Assembly (NCBI RefSeq): GCF_014137855.1
Contig: NZ_JACGWT010000002.1
Location: 620,001-684,000, forward strand
Origin: Microlunatus kandeliicorticis
GTDB taxonomy: Bacteria; Actinomycetota; Actinomycetes; Propionibacteriales; Propionibacteriaceae
Direction: 5' to 3'
DNA length: 64,000 nt
Under the pieces are notes generated by a model. It was not told the DNA's origin. It searched no databases and saw nothing but the letters and a program-made list of their open reading frames with translations. Made by a program: the position numbers and the translations under genes. Shown here piece after piece: positions 28,996 through 63,000 of this stretch (positions within the stretch are counted from its first letter, which is position 1; each line of letters begins with the position of its first letter).

Positions 28996-29045
28996 TTCGT
29001 ACCGGTCACGCGGACGCGTGCGGTGGTCGGTGGTCACGCGTAGCC
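28996..29045 (+). repeat. Island repeat, copy group E
   Basis: One 3' part of a unit (ACCGGTCACGCGGACGCGTG, 29001-29020) followed by a truncated second unit (CGGTGGTCGGTGGTCACGCG). It is about 70 bp past the stop of the full-length reading of the SDR gene. Orientation is the same as all other copies in the island. Confidence 0.85.
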
Positions 29046-29114
29046 CGCGAGGAGGGTGCGGTCGAGCGGGCCTTGTGCCGGCCGGCGCCCGGACCTTCAC
29101 CTTCTCCGCCCGAG

Positions 29115-30040
29115 TCAGGTGCGCCGCTGGCCATGATCGCGGTAACCGCTGTCACCGGCCTCACCACCGACCTCCACGACCTCGCGGTAGTACCGCGGCC
29201 AGTCTGGTCGGGTGCCGTCGCGGTCACTCAGGCCGTAGATGCCGGCGAGGTCGAAGCTGGACAGTGACCGACCGGCGAACCGGCCGGCAGCAGGATCAGC
29301 GGCCAGCGCAGCCACCCCCCCCCGCCCAGGAAATACGGCGACTCGGAGCAACAGAAGTGGGGTTCCCTCGCGGTCGCCTCTCGCCAGGTCGCCTCGGTGA
29401 CGCCGTACCGGTCGAGCATCCGCTCCGACCTCAGCCATCCAGGACTCACCGACACCGCGGTCGACCCGAACCGAGCCAACTCGGCTGCCTGGGCCACCGC
29501 CAGCCTGATCACCGACGCCTTCACGAGGTCGTAGAAGAACGAGCCGCGGTACGCGCCTCCACCGTCGTGAGCGCCATCGGTCACCTCGACGACCAACCCA
29601 CCCCGGCGGCGAGACAACAGACGAAGCGCCGCATGGCTCGTCACCAGATGCGTCTCCACGCCACGGCGCACCATCAACAGCCCGTCATCGAGGGACTGCT
29701 CCCACAACGGTCGCTCCCAATCGGTCAACCCATCGCCGCCCCAGACGTCGTTCACCAAGATGTCGAGTCGACCGACCTCGTCCTCGATCCGGGCGACCAG
29801 ACGCGCGACCGCCACTGGGTCGCTGTGGTCCACCCGCACGGGCACACCGCGACCACCCACCGCGTCGACGAGATCGGCGGTCTCCTCGATCGTCTCCGGC
29901 CGATCGAGATCGGAACGTCCCAGGCGCGAACTGCGCCCGGTCGCGTACACCGTCGCACCGAGAGCCCCCAGCTCAACCGCGATGGCACGACCAGCGCTGC
30001 GGGTGGCGCCAGCGACGAGCGCGACCCGACCGGTGAGCAC
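29115..30040 (-). pseudogene. Short-chain dehydrogenase/reductase with a poly-G frameshift
   Basis: From the ATG at 30040 the protein has the SDR motif VALVAGATRSAGRAIAVEL, the NDVWGGD strand-4 motif and a YDLVKASVIRLA variant of the YxxxK active site. At 29315-29323 nine consecutive C on the plus strand (G9 in the coding strand) shift the frame: as read, the protein ends at 29228 in an unrelated tail, whereas the other frame continues VAALAADPAAGRFAGRSLSS to a stop at 29115 and matches the expected C terminus. Seven or ten G would restore one frame of about 308 aa. This may be a sequencing error, a phase-variable tract or a real mutation. Confidence 0.8.
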
Positions 30041-30073
30041 CCGTCGATGCTAGAGAGATGGGCCTCCTCGGTC

Positions 30074-30107
30074 CACCGGTGGGCGAGCGCGGTTCGCAAT
30101 AGCCGGT
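30074..30107 (+). repeat. Island repeat, degenerate copy D
   Basis: ACCGGT at 30075 and AGCCGGT at 30101 are 27 bp apart, the same period as other units, and the interior GCGA...TCGC can pair, as the CAC...GTG arms do in other copies. The sequence between differs from the consensus. It lies between the SDR start and the stop of the next gene. This assignment rests on spacing and ends rather than strong identity. Confidence 0.45.
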
Positions 30108-30140
30108 CCTCCAGTGCGACAGGCTGTGACGCTCGCTGGA

Positions 30141-31244
30141 CTACAACCGCAGACGGGTCACCGACCAGCCACTTCGTTGCGACGGCATGTCGATGAAGGG
30201 TCCCTCGTCGTCGAAGTCGACGTCTTGGGCGATCAGCCCCGCCGTTGCGGTCGGGCCGGCCGGAGCCCAAGCCGACGTCACGATGGACTCGTTTCCCCGC
30301 CGCGCCTCAAGCCGGACCCGACCGACCCCGTCCCACGTCTGTCGATACACTCGCCGCACCTGCCCCGACCCAACGGGATCGACCTCCCAATCCGACGGCA
30401 TGACCAGATCCGCCGGGTCGGCGTCCAGACGGTCCGCGAGTTCTGCGATCACCGGGTCCACGTCGAAACCGTCCACCTCGGCACGCAAGCGCACGCTGCG
30501 CATCACGTCGTCGCACACCTGCCGACGCTGTTCGTTCTCCACGAGGCGGTCGAATCCTGCGCCGACCGTGACCACAGCCTCGGTCCCGTCATCGCTGAGC
30601 TCGACAGCCGGCTGCTCACCAAGCCGTGCCGTCACCAGCAGCTCAGGACTGATGCGAGACGTCAGGGCTGCTTCGGTGAGGATCTGGACCAGGTGGTCAC
30701 ACAAGAACCGGGCCTTGTGCAGCCATCGGTCAACCGCCGGATCGGCGTGCCATGTGGCGTGCTCCTGCCGGGCATAGCTGCCAACAGCATCGATCCGCAG
30801 AAACGGATAGCTCGCGGCGGTGACCTCGAACGCTGGCACGGCAGCAAGCTTGTGCCTGGTGGCGAAGTCCGCGAGTCCGCGATTCGCTAGGGACCGCAGC
30901 CAGGCCGTGGTCTGAGCCTGGTCCGATCGGTCGGCCACCCAGGTCTCACGCCAGGTCGTCAGCAGCAATTCCGGGAAGCCCTTCGTGATGCGCCGGCTCC
31001 GCCACGTCTTCCGCGCCCACGAATCGAACTCGAAGACCACCGTGAACCGCTCAACCTGAAGGTTCGGTCGCCACGACTCCAGCCAGACTGAGCGCCATCC
31101 GTCCCCGGACAGTTCTTGCGCCATGCCATCGACTGACTGAAACAGACGACGCTGGCTGGCCGCCGAACCGAACGGTGACGGCTCCAACAAAACCTGCCAA
31201 GCCCAGTCCGGCGGGATGGCCGACATCCCGGAATGGCCACTCAT
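30141..31244 (-). CDS. Orphan 367-aa cytoplasmic protein
   Basis: I do not recognise a family. The product has no signal peptide or TM helix and is rich in Trp in its first 110 residues (DWAWQVLLEPSPFG, GWRSVWLESWRPN, FDSWARKTWRSRR, TTWRETWVADR). The middle has WHADPAVDRWLHKARFLCDH, and the C-terminal 90 residues carry more aromatic and acidic residues (QTWDGVGRVRLEARRG). The composition is that of a real gene, less GC-biased at third positions than the core genes. ATG 31244 is the start used; ATG 31226 (MSAIPPDWAW) is an alternative. It lies between repeat groups D and A. Confidence 0.7.
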   Translation of the reverse strand: MSGHSGMSAIPPDWAWQVLLEPSPFGSAASQRRLFQSVDGMAQELSGDGWRSVWLESWRPNLQVERFTVVFEFDSWARKTWRSRRITKGFPELLLTTWRETWVADRSDQAQTTAWLRSLANRGLADFATRHKLAAVPAFEVTAASYPFLRIDAVGSYARQEHATWHADPAVDRWLHKARFLCDHLVQILTEAALTSRISPELLVTARLGEQPAVELSDDGTEAVVTVGAGFDRLVENEQRRQVCDDVMRSVRLRAEVDGFDVDPVIAELADRLDADPADLVMPSDWEVDPVGSGQVRRVYRQTWDGVGRVRLEARRGNESIVTSAWAPAGPTATAGLIAQDVDFDDEGPFIDMPSQRSGWSVTRLRL

Positions 31245-31282
31245 CTCGCGATCATGACATCGCCGAGGGCGAATCGTGCTTG

Positions 31283-31906
31283 CAGTAGCCGGTGGTCACG
31301 CGGACGCGTGCAGTTGCCGGTGGTCACGCGGACGCGTGCAGTTGCCGGTGGTCACGCGGACGCGTGCAGTTGCCGGTGGTCACGCGGACGCGTGCAGTTG
31401 CCGGTGGTCACGCGGACGCGTGCAGTTGCCGGTGGTCACGCGGACGCGTGCAGTTGCCGGTGGTCACGCGGACGCGTGCAGTTGTCGGTGGTCACGCGGA
31501 CGCGTGCAGTTGTCGGTGGTCACGCGGACGCGTGCAGTTGCCGGTGGTCACGCGGACGCGTGCAGTTGCCGGTGGTCACGCGGACGCGTGCAGTTGCCGG
31601 TGGTCACGCGGACGCGTGCAGTTGCCGGTGGTCACGCGGACGCGTGCAGTTGCCGGTGGTCACGCGGACGCGTGCAGTTGCCGGTGGTCACGCGGACGCG
31701 TGCAGTTGCCGGTGGTCACGCGGACGCGTGCAGTTGCCGGTGGTCACGCGGACGCGTGCAGTTGCCGGTGGTCACGCGGACGCGTGCAGTTGCCGGTGGT
31801 CACGCGGACGCGTGCAGTTGCCGGTGGTCACGCGGACGCGTGCGGTGGTCGGTGGTCACGCGGATGCGTGCGGTGGTCGGTGGTCACGCGGATGCGTGCG
31901 GTAGCC
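31283..31906 (+). repeat. Island repeat array A: 22 tandem 28-bp units
   Basis: Each unit is CAGTTGCCGGTGGT followed by CACGCGGACGCGTG; the second half is an inverted repeat (CACGCG/CGCGTG). There are exactly 22 full units from 31283 to 31898, then a broken unit (CGGTAGCC). The first unit reads CAGTAGCC, units 8 and 9 read CAGTTGTC, and the last two read CGGTGGTC and have GGATGCGTG. The rest are identical, so the array has expanded recently. Because 28 is not a multiple of three, all three plus frames are open across it without encoding a real protein. It separates the HIT gene from the orphan gene. Confidence 0.97.
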
Positions 31907-31929
31907 ACCGACCGACACATCCATGCAGA

Positions 31930-32391
31930 TCAAACCCGCGCGAACACCGCGCGAGCGGTTTCGCAGAAATCGACAATATCGGCTCGATCCGCGACGACCC
32001 CACCTTCGAGCATCAGGGCCTGCAGCTGTTCTGAGCGAGCGCCGCCATACTCGCGCACCGTCTCGGCTGTCACAGGCTGCACCACGATGTGAAGGTGCTT
32101 GCGCCCATCGCTGCCATGAGCCCAAAGCGCCACGTAGGTCTGCTCAGGCTGCAGAATCTGCTCCACCGTCAGAGCAGACCGGCGCAGTAGCAGACCAAGC
32201 TCGAGTGAGGCGTCTTGCGAGAGGTCGGCTAGGGCGTCGATGTGTTCGGTTGGGCTGAGCACCAGAGTGCCGAGATTCATGGAGCCCACGACGTGGTTGA
32301 TCACCCAAGTGTCCGACCTGAAGATGAAGCCGCCGGGGAGGTCTCGACGGCCCTGAATCAAATCACAGCCCAAACACCCCGGAACATCCAC
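31930..32391 (-). CDS. HIT-family-like protein
   Basis: 153 aa from a GTG at 32391 with AGGA about ten bases upstream; a GTG at 32460 inside the repeat would add 23 residues. It starts with a CLGCD cysteine pair, then GGFIFRSDTWVINHVVGSMN, LVLSPTEHIDALADLSQDA and KHLHIVVQPV. The HIT motif normally reads HxHxH; here it is H-L-H-I-V, lacking the third His, as in a HIT subgroup I know with HIHFVVQPV. The middle nucleophile His is kept. It should act on nucleotide substrates, which are unknown. It lies between repeat groups A and C. Confidence 0.8.
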   Translation of the reverse strand: MDVPGCLGCDLIQGRRDLPGGFIFRSDTWVINHVVGSMNLGTLVLSPTEHIDALADLSQDASLELGLLLRRSALTVEQILQPEQTYVALWAHGSDGRKHLHIVVQPVTAETVREYGGARSEQLQALMLEGGVVADRADIVDFCETARAVFARV

Positions 32392-32443
32392 ACCACAGAT
32401 CCTGCCATTGCGGTTCCAGGCATCCCGGTAGAACAGCCGCTCG

Positions 32444-32512
32444 CAGTGGTCGGTGGTCACGCGGACGCGTGCAGTTGCCGGTGTCCACGCGGACGCCTGC
32501 AGTAGCCGCTGG
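32444..32512 (+). repeat. Island repeat, copy group C
   Basis: Two full 28-bp units (32444-32471 with CAGTGGTC; 32472-32499 with altered GTCCACGCGGACGCC) and a partial third starting CAGTAGCCGCTGG at 32500. Same orientation as the other groups. It lies between the start of the HIT gene and the stop of the two-TM protein gene. Confidence 0.9.
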
Positions 32513-32545
32513 TTCAAGGATCTCCCGCGCTTCCATGTAGGGCAG

Positions 32546-32887
32546 CTAGCTCCGATCCCAGCGAGGCGACTCGGGACTCGCGTTTCGGCTGTTCTCGGGC
32601 GACCGATGGTCGCGCTTCGCGACCCGACGGCGCTTGGCCGCAGTCAAAGTATTGAGCAAGCCACTCAGGCCAAGCAGAACCCAAAGGACGACGATAATCT
32701 TGGGCACCTCCGCTGTCGATAAGAGTGCGTAGCTCAGGATCACGATGGCTAACGCCACCATCACAAGGCCAACGACGAGCTGGACACGGGCAACTGGCGT
32801 CAACCGGAGTCGCGCCTGCTCCTGCTGCCGCGGAACGCCGTCGTCGTTGCTCTCAAAAAGCTCATCAAGTCGATTGGGACTGGCCAC
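32546..32887 (-). CDS. Small two-TM membrane protein
   Basis: 113 aa from the GTG at 32887, with ACAGGA about eight bases upstream. A longer frame extends into the repeat array at 33013 but that part only encodes repeat and spacer. After a polar N terminus (SPNRLDELFESNDDG) there are two helices (VQLVVGLVMVALAIVILSYA and IIVVLWVLLGLSGLLNTL) and a very basic tail (AAKRRRVAKRDHRSP). No family is recognised. It occupies its own module between repeat groups C and B. Confidence 0.65.
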   Translation of the reverse strand: MASPNRLDELFESNDDGVPRQQEQARLRLTPVARVQLVVGLVMVALAIVILSYALLSTAEVPKIIVVLWVLLGLSGLLNTLTAAKRRRVAKRDHRSPENSRNASPESPRWDRS

Positions 32888-32968
32888 GGCGCATCCTGTC
32901 GCTGAGGGAACGGCCCACGCTCTAACTGTCGCGCCTGAGGCGGCGCCATGCAGACTTCCCGGGTCCCG

Positions 32969-33177
32969 CGCTGCCGAGTGGTCACGCGGACGCGTGCAGT
33001 TGTCGGTGGTCACGCGGACGCGTGCAGTTGTCGGTGGTCACGCGGACGCGTGCAGTTGTCGGTGGTCACGCGGACGCGTGCAGTTGTCGGTGGTCACGCG
33101 GACGCGTGCAGTTGTCGGTGGTCACGCGGACGCGTGCAGTTGTCGGTGGTCACGCGGACGCGTACGTAGCCGGTGAC
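32969..33177 (+). repeat. Island repeat array B: six tandem 28-bp units
   Basis: A degenerate unit ends at 32996, then six units run from 32997 to 33164, all of the CAGTTGTC variety, the last ending CGTA instead of CGTG. A partial CGTAGCCGGTGAC follows up to the metallophosphoesterase stop at 33178. The uniform CAGTTGTC type contrasts with the CAGTTGCC type of array A, so each array has been homogenised on its own. Confidence 0.95.
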
Positions 33178-33939
33178 CTACTGTCCAGCGATGAACTTCG
33201 ACTTGAGCCAGTCCGCACCCGGGTAGCGAACGGCGTCGATCGCGTCATGGACAGCTGAGACGTCGTAGGGCTCGATGCGGTGCTCGAGGCTGTAGCCGGC
33301 GGTGTCCGCCGAGAGCAGGGTCCAGGTGGCTCCGCGGTCTTGGCCGTGGGGGAGGCTCACGCTGCCGACGTTGACGACACGCACACCGGGCGGGCGCCGC
33401 TCGCACGGCCAGTGAGTGTGTCCGGTGAAGACCAGCCTCGCGCCGCAGTCCTGGAGCCCGCGTTCTTCGAGCAGCTCTTGCTCGGTCTGGTCGGTGGTGA
33501 TGCCAGGGCCGTCGTCGCGGCCGGGCGAGGCGTGGACCAGCAGTACCGGTGTGTTGTCGGGCAGCACTGTTCGGGTCTCGAGCGGGAGCCCGGCCAGCCA
33601 CGCTGCGTGGCCGGTGGCAGCGATGGCACCTCGGGTCCAGGCATGGCTGGCCGTGGAGTCGACCAGCAGCTGCACCTGCTGGAGCGACATGCTTGCGCTG
33701 GCTCGTGGAACGAGGTCGGAGTGGCTCCCGTCGAGGACGTAACGGTCGGTGTTGCCCCGGACAGCCGACACGTTTGGTAATGATCTGATGCGAGTGAGCG
33801 TTTCGGCAGGCTGGGGTCCGTGGGCGACATGGTCGCCGATGATCCAGAACTCCTCGACATCGTCGGCCGCTGCCGCGCGCAAGACGGCGTCGAGGGCAAT
33901 GAGATTGCCGTGCACATCGGAGAAGACCGCCACCCGCAT
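33178..33939 (-). CDS. Metallophosphoesterase (YfcE/MJ0936-like)
   Basis: 253 aa from the ATG at 33939. The calcineurin-like metal motifs are complete: FSDVHGN near the N terminus, IGDHVAHGP, VRGNTDRY, LLVHASPG and FTGHTHWP. It ends with VVNVGSVSLPHGQ, typical of the YfcE/MJ0936 group, which hydrolyse phosphodiesters or 2',3'-cyclic nucleotides with two metal ions. GDHVAHG has His where GDxVDxGP has Asp. It is cytoplasmic, and its stop abuts array B. Confidence 0.9.
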   Translation of the reverse strand: MRVAVFSDVHGNLIALDAVLRAAAADDVEEFWIIGDHVAHGPQPAETLTRIRSLPNVSAVRGNTDRYVLDGSHSDLVPRASASMSLQQVQLLVDSTASHAWTRGAIAATGHAAWLAGLPLETRTVLPDNTPVLLVHASPGRDDGPGITTDQTEQELLEERGLQDCGARLVFTGHTHWPCERRPPGVRVVNVGSVSLPHGQDRGATWTLLSADTAGYSLEHRIEPYDVSAVHDAIDAVRYPGADWLKSKFIAGQ

Positions 33940-33953
33940 GTGACCGACACTAG

Positions 33954-33982
33954 GCCGATCGCCTCGCCAGACGAGCATCGGC
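33954..33982 (-). terminator. Hairpin after pyrH
   Basis: GCCGAT (33954-33959) pairs with ATCGGC (33977-33982), and CTCG (33963-33966) with CGAG (33972-33975) inside it. It lies between the pyrH stop and the metallophosphoesterase start and would end pyrH transcription. No island repeat is present here. Confidence 0.55.
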
Positions 33983-34012
33983 TGACCGACCGAGCGTGTG
34001 GGACGCCTCCAC

Positions 34013-34750
34013 TCAGTCGGATGCCGTGATCAGGGTGCCGATGTTCTCGCCGAGACAGATGCGGCGCATGAGCTGCTGTTGGGCAACGTCGAAGATGTGC
34101 ATCGTGAGGCCCTGCTCGCCGGCCAGGACGAAGGCGCTGGTATCCATCACCTTGATGCCGCGAGCGACAGCCTCTTGATAGGTGAGTCGGTCGAAACGCA
34201 CCGCATCGTCGTGCAAATTGGGGTCTTTGTCGTAGACGGCGTCGATGTCGCGTTTCGCGACGAGGAGTGCGTCAGCGTCCAGCTCGAGGGCGCGCTGGAC
34301 CGAGGGGTAGTCGGTGGTGACGTAGGGCTGGCCGATGCCGCCGGCCAGGATGACGATGCGTCCCTGCTCGAGGTGGGAGATGGCGCGGAGGCGGATGAAG
34401 GGCTCGGCGACCGACTGGATCGGGACGGCCGTCATCACCCGGACGTCGGCGCCCGTGCGGCCGGTGAGGGCTCCGCGGAGCATGAGGGCGTTCATCACGG
34501 TGCCGAGCATGCCGATGTTGTCGGCCTCAGCCCGGCCGATGCCCCAGCCCTCGGCCATCCGCCCGCGGAAGTAGTTGCCCCCACCGACCACCACCGCCAC
34601 CTGAATGCCGAGGTCGTGGACCGCGAGGACCTCCTCGCTGAGGTGCGCTAGCCGATCCGGTTCAACACCCCATCCGCTTGATCCCGCCAGCGCCTCGCCA
34701 CTGAGCTTCAAGACGACACGCTGATATCGGGACACGAGCGACTCCTTCAT
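34013..34750 (-). CDS. pyrH: UMP kinase (probable extra copy)
   Basis: 245 aa from the ATG at 34750; GTG 34735 is an alternative. It phosphorylates UMP to UDP. KLSGEALAG with the phosphate-binding Lys, VVVGGGNYFRGR, ADNIGMLGTVMNALMLRGAL, TDYPSVQRALELDADALLVA, DAVYDKDP and IKVMDTSAFVLA are all intact PyrH signatures. The usual actinobacterial pyrH lies between tsf and frr, which are not here, so this is probably a second copy carried by the island. It is divergent from a NUDIX gene 70 bp away with no repeat between them. Confidence 0.92.
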   Translation of the reverse strand: MKESLVSRYQRVVLKLSGEALAGSSGWGVEPDRLAHLSEEVLAVHDLGIQVAVVVGGGNYFRGRMAEGWGIGRAEADNIGMLGTVMNALMLRGALTGRTGADVRVMTAVPIQSVAEPFIRLRAISHLEQGRIVILAGGIGQPYVTTDYPSVQRALELDADALLVAKRDIDAVYDKDPNLHDDAVRFDRLTYQEAVARGIKVMDTSAFVLAGEQGLTMHIFDVAQQQLMRRICLGENIGTLITASD

Positions 34751-34819
34751 CCGGACGAGGTCATCGACCAGTACAGCAGCTCCGGTGATCGAGCGAGGGG
34801 CGGCTGGTAGAACGGCTCC

Positions 34820-35263
34820 GTGCCGCACCCACGCCACCTGGTCGCTGCCGGCGTCATCATTCGCGATCCACGTGATCGGATCCTCATGGTCCAGACCTTC
34901 AACCGGCTCGGACAAGGGTTGATCCTTCCGGGCGGACTGGTGGAGGAGGGCGAACCCCCTCACCAGGCCGCAGTGCGCGAAGCGGAAGAGGAACTCGGTC
35001 TCAGGGTCGAGGTTGACCGACTGCTGGCCATCGAACACCACTCCGCATTCAACGGCCGACCCTCGAGCCTCCAATTCGTCTTCGCCGCCGCAGATGTGAT
35101 CTCCAACGACTTCGCGCCGAGGTTGCAGCCCGACGAGATCGCCGAAGCGAGATGGGTGAAGGAGTCAGAAGCTGTCGAGCTCCACGGTGCCGCGGGCCGA
35201 GCGCGCATGGCGGCAGCTCTAGAGGCATCACGAACCGGAATACCTGCCTACTTGGCCACCTGA
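34820..35263 (+). CDS. NUDIX hydrolase in the island
   Basis: 147 aa from the GTG at 34820. The NUDIX box GGLVEEGEPPHQAAVREAEE followed by ELGL is complete, and LVAAGVIIRDPRDRILMVQT is the first strand. FNRLGQGLILPGG suggests the branch of the family that cleans or activates nucleotides. It is divergent from pyrH, sharing a 69-bp intergenic region, and is followed 27 bp downstream by repeat group F. The pair may handle the same nucleotide pool, which is an inference from position. Confidence 0.88.
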   Translation: MPHPRHLVAAGVIIRDPRDRILMVQTFNRLGQGLILPGGLVEEGEPPHQAAVREAEEELGLRVEVDRLLAIEHHSAFNGRPSSLQFVFAAADVISNDFAPRLQPDEIAEARWVKESEAVELHGAAGRARMAAALEASRTGIPAYLAT

Positions 35264-35289
35264 CGAATTGCGCAAGCTGGTCGCAGTTG

Positions 35290-35357
35290 CAGTAGCCGGT
35301 GATCACACGGAGTGTGCGATAGCCGGTGGTCACGCGGACGCGCGCGGTTGACCGGGA
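35290..35357 (+). repeat. Island repeat, copy group F
   Basis: Unit one (35290-35316, 27 bp) reads CAGTAGCCGGTGAT then CACACGGAGTGTG; unit two (35317-35344) reads CGATAGCCGGTGGT then CACGCGGACGCGCG; a partial CGGTTGACCGG follows. In unit one both arms differ from the consensus but still pair (CACAC with GTGTG), a compensatory change. Confidence 0.9.
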
Positions 35358-35411
35358 CCCGCTTAACACCACAACGGCCTAAAATTGCCCATGGCCAAGC
35401 GGAGACAACCC

Positions 35412-36086
35412 ATGAGCCCCGCTGACCAATACCTCTTCGACCTAGCAGACGAGATCAGCCCAAACCGACCCCAGCTCGTCCCTGATCTCGACTCAGCTGG
35501 CCCGGCGAATCTTCACTGGAACCCGGCCAGCAGCATCCAAGCGGCAGACGATGCCGATATGGAGGTCGACCTTCAACAGTTTGACCACGCCTGCCAGCAC
35601 GCCGACCCCGAACTCGTGGCACGTCTGGCCTGGACACCTGGCCTGCCCGAAGAGTTGCGTGGACGTCTGGCTCACCACGCCGCCGACGAGGTCCGCGCCT
35701 GGGTAGCCGCCGGCACCCGCAAGCCCGAGCTACACCAACTTCTCCGTGAGGATGAGTCCCCCCGAGTCCGAGCGTTCGCCCTATGGTCGGCCTTCACCAC
35801 CAGCGATCAGCTGGTCCAGGCGGCAGACGACCGGCGACTCGAAGTACGAGCAGTCGTCGCCGACCACGCTTTGACCCCCATCGACACGCTGCTGAAGTTG
35901 GCGCACGACTCCTCCGCGCGCGTCCGCTGGTCTCTGGCCACCGGGCCCCACGCAGCAGAACCACGCATCCTGCAGGTACTCCAATCAGACCCCGATAGGT
36001 CCGTCGCCATGCAGGCTCGATCGACACTGGAGAACATCGCGAGCGGCGACCGGGCAGAGCGAACGCTCGGTGAGCCCAGCCAATAG
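35412..36086 (+). CDS. LRV/HEAT-like repeat protein
   Basis: 224 aa from the ATG at 35412, chosen because GGAG at 35401-35404 is well placed; an ATG at 35391 would add seven residues. After an acidic N terminus, from about residue 65 there are roughly 22-25 residue helical repeats (ELVARLAWTPGLPEELRGRL, EVRAWVAAGTRKPELHQLL, VRAFALWSAFTTSDQLVQAA, VRAVVADHALTPIDTLLKLA and VRWSLATGPHAAEPRILQVL) with the D..xxVR signature of leucine-rich-variant/HEAT proteins. Such proteins bind other proteins or nucleic acid; the partner is unknown. It lies between repeat groups F and G. Confidence 0.75.
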   Translation: MSPADQYLFDLADEISPNRPQLVPDLDSAGPANLHWNPASSIQAADDADMEVDLQQFDHACQHADPELVARLAWTPGLPEELRGRLAHHAADEVRAWVAAGTRKPELHQLLREDESPRVRAFALWSAFTTSDQLVQAADDRRLEVRAVVADHALTPIDTLLKLAHDSSARVRWSLATGPHAAEPRILQVLQSDPDRSVAMQARSTLENIASGDRAERTLGEPSQ

Positions 36087-36118
36087 CGACACACCGGACC
36101 TACTGCGACTGAGCGGTG

Positions 36119-36184
36119 CAGTAGCCGGTGGTCACAAGGAGCGTGCGATAGCCGGTGGTCACGCGGACGCGTGCAGTTGGCCGG
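36119..36184 (+). repeat. Island repeat, copy group G
   Basis: Unit one (36119-36145, 27 bp) has GGTGGTCACAAGGAGCGTG; unit two (36146-36173) is CGATAGCCGGTGGT then CACGCGGACGCGTG; a partial CAGTTGGCCGG follows. Its two-unit layout (27 bp then 28 bp, with CGATAGCC opening the second) is the same as group F. It lies between the LRV-like gene and the integrase remnant. Confidence 0.9.
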
Positions 36185-36318
36185 TCCCCATCTGACATGG
36201 CCACCCTGACGACGCAGGTGGCCCGACTCCACTCAGTACCGAGCTTCGAGACGCAGGGATTGCGACTGTTGCGCCTGGTCAAGGTCGAGGTGTCGCATAT
36301 AGCCCGCCCGCCTGGATT
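36185..36318. other. Gap between repeat G and the integrase remnant
   Basis: No gene is supported here. A 94-aa frame (36155-36439) begins inside the repeat and crosses the integrase remnant out of frame; it has no recognisable features. Confidence 0.5.
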
Positions 36319-36531
36319 CTCAGTGAGGGGGCCTCAACTGGTACACTGCCTGGCCATCGTGAGGACCTCGCCACAGGTCCACCCCACAGCGGGACGACAG
36401 TCACCGAGATGGTCTACCGCCACCAGCCTCGGCCGGTGATCCAGACGGGTGCCCTCGTCATGGACCAGCTGTTCAGGCCGACCGATCCGAGCGGATTGAC
36501 GGCCAGTGGACAAGCGCTGGTCTGCCGGTGA
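36319..36531 (+). pseudogene. 3' remnant of a tyrosine recombinase (phage-type integrase)
   Basis: The last 70 codons of an integrase are readable: HSGTTVTEMVYRHQPRPVIQ followed by TGALVMDQLF. This matches the end of actinobacterial phage/ICE integrases, with the nucleophilic Tyr in VTEMVYRHQ and the conserved His of the GHSG motif in HSGTT. The preceding 20 codons (EDLATGPP) are only partly consistent with the expected helix, and the rest of the catalytic domain is gone. The gene points at, and ends 34 bp from, the 3' end of tRNA-Pro, the normal position of an integrase beside its tRNA attachment site. Confidence 0.72.
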
Positions 36532-36558: not shown

Positions 36559-36565
36559 ACAGCGG

Positions 36566-36639
<74 letters not shown>

Positions 36640-53999: not shown

Positions 54000-54181
54000 G
54001 ACCTGCGCTAAGCCCGTTCGAACGTGCGCTGAGCCTGTCGAAGCGCCGAGTCAGAACGTGCGCTGAGCCTGTCGAGGCGCTGGGGGAGTTCGTGTGCTGA
54101 GTCTGTCGAAGCGCTGGGGGAGTTCGTGTGCTGAGCTTGTCGAAGCGCCGGGGAGTTCGTGCGCTGAGCTTGTCGAAGCGC
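54000..54181 (+). repeat. Tandem cluster of REP-like GTGCGCTGAGCCTGTCGAAG repeats
   Basis: Copies of the core GTGCGCTGAGCCTGTCGAAG begin at about 54024, 54058, 54092, 54126 and 54159, spaced 33-34 bp with TGGGGGAGTTC-type spacers between several of them; a degenerate copy (GCGCTAAGCCCGTTCGAACG) lies at 54005. The same family is at 16.1 kb as an inverted pair. Both clusters sit at gene 3' ends. Similar palindromic elements are common in other bacterial genomes. Confidence 0.9.
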
Positions 54182-60093: not shown

Positions 60094-63000
60094 ATGGGCA
60101 GGCTGGCTCAGCTGAGCATGCGGAACAGGGCGCTGATCGCCCTGATCACCGTGTTCGTGATGATCTTCGGGGTCATCACGACGACCCAGCTCAAGCAGGA
60201 GCTCATCCCGTCGATCGACATCCCGACGGCGTTCATCTCGACCAGCTATCCGGGCGCCTCGCCCGAGGTGGTCGAGCAGACCGTGACCATCCCGATCGAG
60301 CAGGCCGTGCTGGGGGTCCAGGGCCTGGATTCGACCAGCTCGACCTCGAGCACCGGCCAGTCCCAGGTCACCGTCAACCTCACCTACGGTACGAACATCA
60401 CCACCGCCCAGCAGGACCTGCAGGCGGCGGTCAGCCGGATCAAGTCCGCGCTCCCCGACGACGTCGACCCGCAGGTGATCACCGGCAGCGTCGACGACCT
60501 CCCGGTGCTCCAGCTGAGCGTCACCGGTGGCAGGAACCGGGTCGACCTGGCGCAGCGGCTCAACGACATCGCCGTCCCCGACCTGCAGAAGCTCGACGGC
60601 GTCCGCGCGGTCACGGTGGCGGGCGCGCCCGAGCGACGGGTCGAGATCGACCTCGACACCACCAAGCTCGAGGACCGCGGCTATTCGGTCAGCGCCGTCA
60701 CCGCGGCGCTCCAGGCCAACGGCGCGGTCAGCTCGGCCGGCTCGATCACCGACGGCCAGCAGTCGTTGTCGGTCAACGTCGGCGAGCGGCTGACCAGCGC
60801 CAAGCAGATCGCCGCGCTGTCGCTGGTGCCGCCGACCACCACGGTGTCGCAGCAGGCCTCGTCCGGCGCCCAGTCCGGTGCCGGATCGGCCGGCGCGGGG
60901 TCGGGTGCCTCGGCCGGCGGGGCATCGAGTGGAGCCGCCTCGGGTGGCACCGCCGCGGGGAGCCAGACCGGGACTCAGACCGGGACTCAGACCGGGACTC
61001 AGACCGGGACTCAGACCGGGACTCAGACCGGGACTCAGACCGGGACTCAGACCGGGACTCAGACCGGGACTCAGACGGGGACCCAGACGGGGCAAGCGGG
61101 GCAGGCCGGCGCTCAGGCCGGCCAGGCCGGCGCGCAGGTGCAGACCGTCCCGCCGACCCCGACCGGCGCGCTGCCCGCGCAGGTGCGGACCAAGCGGGCG
61201 CGTCCGACGACGATCGGCGACGTGGCGACCGTCCGCGACACCACCGCGCCGGCGACCTCGATCTCGCGGACCAACGGCAAGGACAGCCTGTCGCTGTCGA
61301 TCACGAAGACCCCCGACGGCAACACCGTCGCGGTGAGCAAGGCGGTCACCGCGGCGCTGCCCGCGCTCTCGCAGAAGCTCGGCGGCGACGTCGCCTTCAC
61401 CACGGTCTTCGACCAGGCGCCGTTCATCACCCAGTCGATCGACGACCTGCTCAGCGAGGGCGGGCTCGGCCTGGCCATGGCCATCGTGGTGATCCTGATC
61501 TTCCTGCTGTCGGTCCGCTCGACGCTGGTCACCGCGATCTCGATCCCGGTCTCGGTCCTGGTGACCATGATCGGCCTGCGCGCCGCCGACTACTCGCTCA
61601 ACGTGCTCACCCTGGGCGCCCTGACCATCGCCATCGGTCGGGTGGTCGACGACTCGATCGTGGTGATCGAGAACATCAAACGCCACCTCTCCTACGGCGA
61701 GGACAAGCGCATCGCGATCCTCACCGCGGTGCGTGAGGTCGCCACCGCGATCACCGCCGCCACGCTGACCACGGTCGCGGTGTTCGCCCCGATCGCGCTG
61801 GTCGGTGGCCAGACCGGGCAGCTGTTCCGGCCGTTCGCGATCACCGCCACCCTGGCCCTGCTCAGCTCGCTGATCGTGGCGCTGACCATCGTCCCGGTGC
61901 TGGCCTACTGGTTCCTGCGGTCGCCGCGCGGCCAGGTCGACCCCGAGCAGGTCCGCGCGGAGGCCGAGCAGAAGGAACGGCGCAGCATCCTGCAGCGCGT
62001 CTACGTCCCGCTCGTCACTCGGGCTGTCCGGCACCCGGTGATCGTGCTGCTGATCGCGGTGGCGATCATGGGCGGGACGGCCGCGCTGGCCCCGCAGCTC
62101 AAGTTCGACTATCTCGGCAACAGCGGCCAGAACACCCTCAGCGTCACCGAGCAGTTCGCCCCGTCGCTCAGCCTCGACACCAAGTCGGCGCAGGCGGCCA
62201 GGGTGGAGAAGGCGATCCGCGGCGTCGAGGGCGTCCAGACCGTGCAGACCACCGTCGGCGGGTCGGGCGGGGCGCAGGCAGCGTTCACCGGGTCGGGCGC
62301 CGACAACGCGACCTTCTCGGTCACCACCGACGCCCAGGCCGACCAGGCCGCGATCGAGGGCCGGCTGCGGTCGGCGGTCAGCGCGCTCGACGGCGTCGGC
62401 GAGATCACGGTCAGTGCGCAGAACTCCGGGTTCGGCAGCCAGGCGGTCGAGGTGATCGTCAACGCGCCCGACGCCGGCTCGCTGCAGCGGGGGGCCGACC
62501 TGGTGCTGGCCCGGATGAAGCAGGTGCCCGGGGTCTCCGACGTCACCTCCTCGCTCGCCGCCGACCAGCCGCTGGTGCAGATCACCGTCGACCAGGAGAA
62601 GGCGGCCGAGAAGGCGGTCACGGACACCCAGATCAACCAGGCGCTCACCGGCATCCTCGCGCCCGCCAAGGTCGGCACCGTGGAGATCGACGGGCAGGAC
62701 CGCGACATCGTGCTCAAGACCAAGAGCGCACCCGACGGCCTGACCGCGCTGCGCAACGTCAAGATCACCAGCCAGACGGGCAAGGAGGTCAAGCTCTCCG
62801 ACGTCGCGGAGGTGAAGCTGACCAAGGTGGCCACCCAGATCTCGCGCCAGGACAGCCAGCGCAGCGCGACGATCTCACTGACCCCGGACGGCGACAACCT
62901 CCGCGCGGTCAACGCCGACGTGACCGCCGGGCTGGCCGAGCTCAAGCTGCCGACCGGGGTGGAGACCTCACTGGGCGGGGTCAGCTCCGACCAGTCGGAC

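Follow-up and report, generated by a model that had tools for sequence, protein, structure and literature searches.

Two arrays of small gene modules with a common 12-nt core resemble gene cassette arrays in the actinobacterium Microlunatus kandeliicorticis

Introduction

In Actinobacteria, the survey made with IntegronFinder 2.0 reports no complete integron, one In0, and a few clusters of attC sites lacking an integrase (CALIN) (PMC9024848). The pdif modules of Acinetobacter plasmids are small gene modules placed between short recombination sites of ~28 bp (PMC6449649). Repetitive extragenic palindromes (REPs) and REPINs, with their RAYT, are short (20-40 bp), present in many copies, and often in opposite orientation (PMC3733652). 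Here, we analyze a stretch of 64,000 nucleotides of Microlunatus kandeliicorticis (hereafter the window, C2:620001-684000, where C2 is contig NZ_JACGWT010000002.1), whose genome comprises 4,302,690 bases in 9 contigs. The window contains an array of gene modules separated by short hairpin repeats, which we call array 1, and a second array lies downstream on the same contig.

Among described systems, the two arrays are most like a cassette array. As in integrons and CALIN, mostly single-gene modules of unrelated function stand in tandem, separated by one family of junction repeats, with a common array end and carriage on a mobile element. In contrast to them, there are no attC boxes and no IntI, the genes are found in both directions, and the repeat unit forms tandem runs of up to 30 units. 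On balance, we favor the explanation that both arrays consist of small cassettes, mostly of one gene each, that are exchanged at a common core. This explanation is strong on anatomy rather than on dynamics, and it is from the arrangement of the sequence that we infer the movement of genes, by excision and insertion at the core.

Repeat arrays and their modules

We searched the genome for the unit core GGTCACGCGGACGCGTGC, allowing up to 2 mismatches, and obtained 80 matches. Two clusters on contig C2 account for 77 of them, all on the + strand, and the other 3 are on other contigs, with 2 mismatches each (one +, two -). A scatter of the repeat between core genes throughout the genome, which an initial annotation of the window had named as the finding to look for against a cassette system, is thus not what we see. 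Array 1 is the cluster in the window (28999-36174). Array 2 (C2:728862-749021, ~20 kb) lies 73 kb further downstream, outside the window. Under a 45-nt grouping rule, and with five weak single matches dropped, the matches form 29 repeat groups, 6 in array 1 and 23 in array 2. Searches of 170 kb of the contig for whole units gave 137 forward units in the two arrays at up to 3 mismatches, with no forward unit elsewhere and no reverse unit at all. At up to 5 mismatches there were 150 forward units in the arrays (37 in array 1, 113 in array 2), 3 forward units elsewhere, 1 reverse unit in the arrays, and 2 reverse units elsewhere. The arrays have a lower G+C content (66.5% for array 1, 64.3% for array 2) than the first 28 kb of the window (73.6%) or the DNA between them (73.5%).

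The initial annotation had placed the array between a truncated GNAT gene and an integrase remnant and had described seven groups of repeats, all oriented alike, between genes pointing either way. The array and the uniform orientation of its repeats were borne out by these searches, and Pfam confirmed the GNAT fragment. The genes of the array in the window are six on the minus strand followed by two on the plus strand, and among 40 called open reading frames (ORFs), flanks and doubtful ones counted, 25 are on the minus strand and 15 on the plus strand. The number of groups changed: our rule gives six, and there is an additional core without a hairpin at 30096-30107. As for the integrase remnant, a stretch of 40 aa resembles, as judged by eye alone, the C-terminus of the intact integrase in locus L022.

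The consensus of the repeat is CCGGTGGTCACGCGGA(C)GCGTGC[AG]NTNG, which is 27 or 28 bp long. The unit is either CCGGTGGTCACGCGGAGCGTGC or CCGGTGGTCACGCGGACGCGTGC, followed by five variable bases, and the base after the 28-bp form is mostly A (53 vs 10 G), that after the 27-bp form mostly G (42 vs 9 A). Units of the same subtype stand in runs, such as AGTTG x19 and GGTTG x9, which indicates local amplification. The 5-bp stem CACGC/GCGTG hardly varies; at 35296 it is CACAC/GTGTG, the one compensated change. In the flanks, inverse copies of CCACCGGC were no more frequent than in shuffles.

Between neighboring groups we counted 27 modules, 314-2240 bp long, of which 20 contain one ORF; called ORFs cover 83% of the module length. 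A Pfam family above the cut-off was found for 14 of the 32 module ORFs scanned, and their functions are unrelated. Array 1 encodes SDR, metallophosphoesterase, amino acid kinase, and NUDIX families, in agreement with the earlier labels (PF00106/PF13561, PF12850, PF00696 for the pyrH-like gene, and PF00293). Array 2 encodes MFS, beta-lactamase-type hydrolase, nucleotidyltransferase, HIT, APH, redoxin, HAD, NUDIX, MazG, and AAA_33. Two other labels fared less well: for the ORF called HIT in array 1, Pfam gave no match at E 0.01, and for the protein called LRV-like it gave HEAT matches only, below the cut-off. Among the 10 proteins examined, there was no convincing defence gene. The modules at C2:652501 and C2:743286, one in each array, are alike over their left ~60 bp (78% identity) and then diverge.

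A common core at the module ends

We aligned the junctions between modules and repeats in both arrays, taking 29 left junctions and 23 of the 29 right junctions (6 were dropped for want of a terminal half unit). One 12-nt core, GCRRTWGCCGGT, marks the place where the modules end. At the right end of the modules, GC-RGTWG is kept before the CCGGTGG of the first unit; at the left of each module, conservation extends through GCCGGT and then decays. Flanking the core on either side, conservation drops to background. The 170 kb contain 71 exact copies of this core, all forward and all within the arrays. In the window there are 24 matches, all on the + strand and between 30096 and 36156, for a mean of 0.11 in shuffled sequences.

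One exact copy, the hairpin-less core mentioned above, separates the SDR gene from the 367-aa gene. It suggests that the joint is the core rather than the hairpin. A copy with 2 mismatches lies between two ORFs at C2:747773. At that stringency, the controls gave 3 forward, 1 reverse, and 1 reversed hits in intergenic DNA and 3, 3, and 3 in genic DNA, hence only the exact hairpin-less copy is strong.

Array ends and carrier element

The ends of the two arrays are alike, with 76% identity over 207 bp, including two identical 26-nt blocks (36286-36311 and 36315-36340), and this region is found nowhere else in the genome than at these two ends. It holds the 3' end of a gene that encodes 117 aa next to array 2, where it is intact, whereas the copy next to array 1 is cut off. 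Relative to the tRNA, gene and array follow each other in opposite order at the two loci. The mismatches between the two copies are distributed 12/17/20 over codon positions. Beyond the end of the cut-off gene, the region has no open frame common to both copies, and we found no promoter-like site in it. Divergent from the 117-aa gene, C2:749612-750334 encodes a 240-aa protein with several helix-turn-helix matches, the best being resolvase HTH_7.

Array 2 is flanked by tRNA-Thr (C2:721159) on one side and by a second copy of the last 44 bp of this tRNA's 3' part on the other; the 44-bp repeats are at C2:721189 and C2:753362. The element around it encodes Int (PF00589), HTH_17, RepSA (PF20199, E 6e-88), and an FtsK-type translocase (PF01580). 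The carrier is an actinomycete integrative and conjugative element (AICE) of 32.2 kb, including the 20.2 kb of the array. Its Int, HTH_17, RepSA, FtsK, and tRNA site are those of pSAM2-type AICEs (PMC3218068), and it differs from these in having a 20 kb cassette array as cargo.

Relatives of the FtsK protein are present in 27 of the 391 genomes of the order, this genome counted. We fetched ten related AICEs, nine with the integrase beside a tRNA and the tenth in part. The array unit was absent from all ten by tandem-repeat finding and from nine of the ten by unit count, and the only module protein with homologues in these elements is NUDIX, in three of them. End repeats were found in 5 of the 9, at 11.7-17.6 kb, and for the other 4 there were none in the stretch fetched. 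Array 2 looks like added cargo of the AICE, given that the related elements lack the array and, where their ends were found, are smaller. In one related AICE region (L182/L183, genome G009) we noted a 126-bp tandem repeat in 14 copies.

Array 1 stops 390 bp short of tRNA-Pro, next to the integrase-like remnant, and is probably the leftover of a similar element. Of 17 other loci in the genus, 15 have this tRNA next to the same gene. In the ten regions fetched, none of the genes of array 1 was found in the ~16 kb beyond tRNA-Pro at the thresholds used, and likewise none of the genes to its left. The tRNA-Pro site is thus variable, yet the relatives compared have no clean empty site, since the left neighbors of the array are missing there as well.

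Features of the window

The features of array 1 and its surroundings are listed in Table 1. The tRNA was the sole Rfam match. Away from the array, the window has a 34-bp tandem repeat with GCTGAGCCTGTCGAAG (4.7 copies, 54004-54181) and a 12-bp tandem repeat (10.8 copies, 60964-61092). Repeats with CCTGAGCCTGTCGAAGG, similar to the former, are present in a genome of the same genus (L151:2266-2376).

Table 1. Position of array 1 and neighboring features in the window
Feature	Position	Strand	Remark
Repeat group 1	28999..29048	+	2 degenerate units; left end of array 1
SDR module gene	29228..30040	-	PF00106/PF13561
Hairpin-less 12-nt core	30096..30107	+	GCAATAGCCGGT; between SDR gene and 367-aa gene
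367-aa module gene	30141..31244	-	No Pfam or PADLOC match at E 0.01
Repeat group 2	31289..31899	+	22 units of 28 bp
153-aa module ORF	31930..32391	-	HIT label without Pfam support
Repeat group 3	32450..32500	+	2 units
113-aa module ORF	32546..32887	-	Hydrophobic stretches; Pfam matches all below cut-off
Repeat group 4	32975..33165	+	7 units
Metallophosphoesterase module gene	33178..33978	-	PF12850
Amino acid kinase family module gene	34013..34915	-	PF00696; PyrH-like; start codon uncertain
NUDIX module gene	34820..35263	+	PF00293
Repeat group 5	35296..35345	+	2 units; changed stem CACAC/GTGTG in the first
224-aa module gene	35412..36086	+	Weak HEAT repeats below cut-off
Repeat group 6	36125..36174	+	2 units
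Array-end region common to both arrays	36180..36386	not assigned	Holds 3' end of cut-off gene
Remnant resembling tyrosine integrase C-terminus	36409..36531	+	40 aa; by eye
tRNA-Pro (CGG)	36564..36639	-	Conserved edge of site

Searches in other genomes

The initial annotation had suggested seeking the repeat in related strains, together with a recombinase always accompanying it. We searched for the unit core in 57 relatives, 9 of which had a match, and none except this genome exceeded 2; in 20 genomes of the genus there was no array. A double pattern matched 64 stretches of genome contigs, of which we viewed one match context each and in 6 of which we searched for repeats, with no array found. 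The counts over whole genomes, made for 8 of the genomes with the double pattern, did not exceed 7 copies. Viral contigs, plasmids, and phages gave no match. A covariance model of the unit, with 17 candidates scored per genome in 391 genomes of the order, gave 19 for this genome and one weak match in each of three others, around which there was no unit array. Of 394 genomes in the class, 10 have the 117-aa gene beside the array end, this genome counted, and ten stretches around it, from 8 of the 9 other genomes (G290 was not fetched), contain no unit runs. Records very near this genome may be missing from the collections searched. These searches gave no second genome with the array, and no recombinase could be tied to the repeat. 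Our literature searches gave no description of such an array in actinobacteria.

These searches brought up other repeats. In Nocardioides aequoreus (L056), 29-bp tandem hairpin repeats, GGTCACGCTCCGCGTGAC..., are found on one contig (L056:7-122 and 2879-2936), and the genome has 7 copies, in both orientations. Contigs of one uncultured Treponema bin (L068, L080, L086, L092, L102, and L104) have many tandem repeats like GTCACACGGATT, with a shorter period.

Recombinases and tests for integrons

The attC boxes follow the consensus RYYYAAC...GTTRRRY. Scanning both strands of both arrays for R''/R' pairs of this form, 30-150 nt apart, we found none (shuffled sequences gave 0.25-0.96). Nine intact tyrosine recombinases of the genome were compared with TIGR02249, and the best reached 102.8 bits, far from the cut-off of 265 (a tenth gene, a fragment, was not scanned). 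With no attC box pair and no recombinase near the cut-off for integron integrases, the array is not an integron; the initial annotation had likewise seen neither attC R boxes nor IntI. As for attI, both arrays end in the common 207-bp region described above, in which there was no promoter-like site. The genome encodes a XerD-like recombinase. It has no match to the Y1/RAYT transposase (PF01797), for which a control search was positive in 5 of 14 genomes.

Alternative explanations

The initial annotation had left the choice between a cassette system and a REP-like family, and the evidence now favors the former. A REP-like family of hairpins that colonized the intergenic DNA of two ordinary islands, in which case these genes would not be cassettes, is in our opinion unlikely. 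The unit would qualify: it is palindromic and extragenic, with a 5-bp stem preceded by GTGG, and its 27-28 bp are within the size range given for REPs (PMC3733652); tandem 29-bp hairpins of similar sequence also occur in the Nocardioides (L056) and in L077. However, the repeats are at two loci only, one of them inside an integrated mobile element, they have no reverse units at 3 mismatches where REPs are often opposed (PMC3733652), the genome has no Y1 transposase, and an exact core without a hairpin marks a gene boundary. Another explanation does without any dedicated system: homologous or illegitimate recombination would have gathered the genes in a tract of tandem repeats, and slippage would have made the repeats grow. 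The runs of one subtype do betray local amplification, and no recombinase stands beside the arrays. But one short core recurs at both ends of the modules, more regularity than random breakpoints would leave, and this core is found between two genes even without the hairpin, so we regard this scenario as quite improbable.

Known cassette-like systems account for the arrays less well. The 28-bp unit and the genes pointing either way bring to mind Xer-dependent modules such as pdif in Acinetobacter plasmids, and the genome does have a XerD-like protein. A dif unit is ~28 bp long and has A+T-rich arms. The unit found here lacks such arms, as judged by eye, and all units have one orientation. Compared with pdif modules (PMC6449649), the site sequence is also different and the location is a chromosomal AICE, which makes this explanation very unlikely. 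The last possibility, a true cluster of attC sites that lost its integrase, would fit the cassette-like content and the form of the array, and a few CALIN are on record in Actinobacteria (PMC9024848). We hold it to be extremely unlikely, as a real array would have about one R''...R' pair per junction and the arrays have none.

The exchange of cassettes at the core must itself be weighed against several observations. More than one ORF was called in 7 of the 27 modules, and one module has three genes with no recognizable core between them; the ORF caller is our own and crude, with a bias toward long ORFs, and in two modules the single ORF is doubtful. Inside modules, weak cores with 2 mismatches number 6 forward, 4 reverse, and 4 reversed. 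No gain or loss of a module was seen, since the searches gave no second genome with the array. No serine recombinase was found in the genome, and apart from the AICE integrase, 6.4 kb off, no recombinase lies beside either array. Moreover, neither the covariation of the stem nor the folding of the unit exceeds that of shuffles, hence the hairpin is real as sequence and its functional fold is putative. Only 1 of the 29 right junctions folds beyond shuffles (z below -3), and the comparison of module right ends with module interiors is weak (P 0.046 for stems, 0.20 for energy). We discarded a count of stems that follow the last CCGGT (9/29 vs 10.2%), because some of the nine are the unit's own hairpin. 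Overall, the evidence from folding for hairpins as folded recombination sites is neutral or weak.

Proposed mechanism and significance

If cassettes are exchanged in these arrays, each module would be bounded on both sides by GCRRTWGCCGGT in the same orientation, and the 27/28-bp hairpin unit would be the smallest possible module, a hairpin plus a core, whose runs were amplified. Strand exchange at the core would be the work of a site-specific recombinase, most likely one of the tyrosine family, and a circular module made of a gene and one core would enter or leave the array whatever the direction of its gene. The acting enzyme may be the AICE integrase, a Xer protein, or an integrase encoded elsewhere in the genome; it may also belong to another element or have been lost. 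The common end of ~207 bp would be the fixed edge of the platform, and array 2 would have been brought into the chromosome by the AICE in the tRNA-Thr gene. The complete picture, that of a cassette collector unrelated to integrons, with crossover at the core, the unit as an empty cassette or landing site, genes in either direction, and a platform borne by an AICE, is a tentative proposal to which we give somewhat less than even credence. It would place such a collector in a phylum from which complete integrons are scarcely known.

With a short core, empty units, and a defined array end, the idea of cassettes lends itself to direct testing. If the arrays do recombine at the core, actinobacteria would have their own way of stockpiling single genes, on conjugative elements, and the collecting of cassettes would have evolved more than once.

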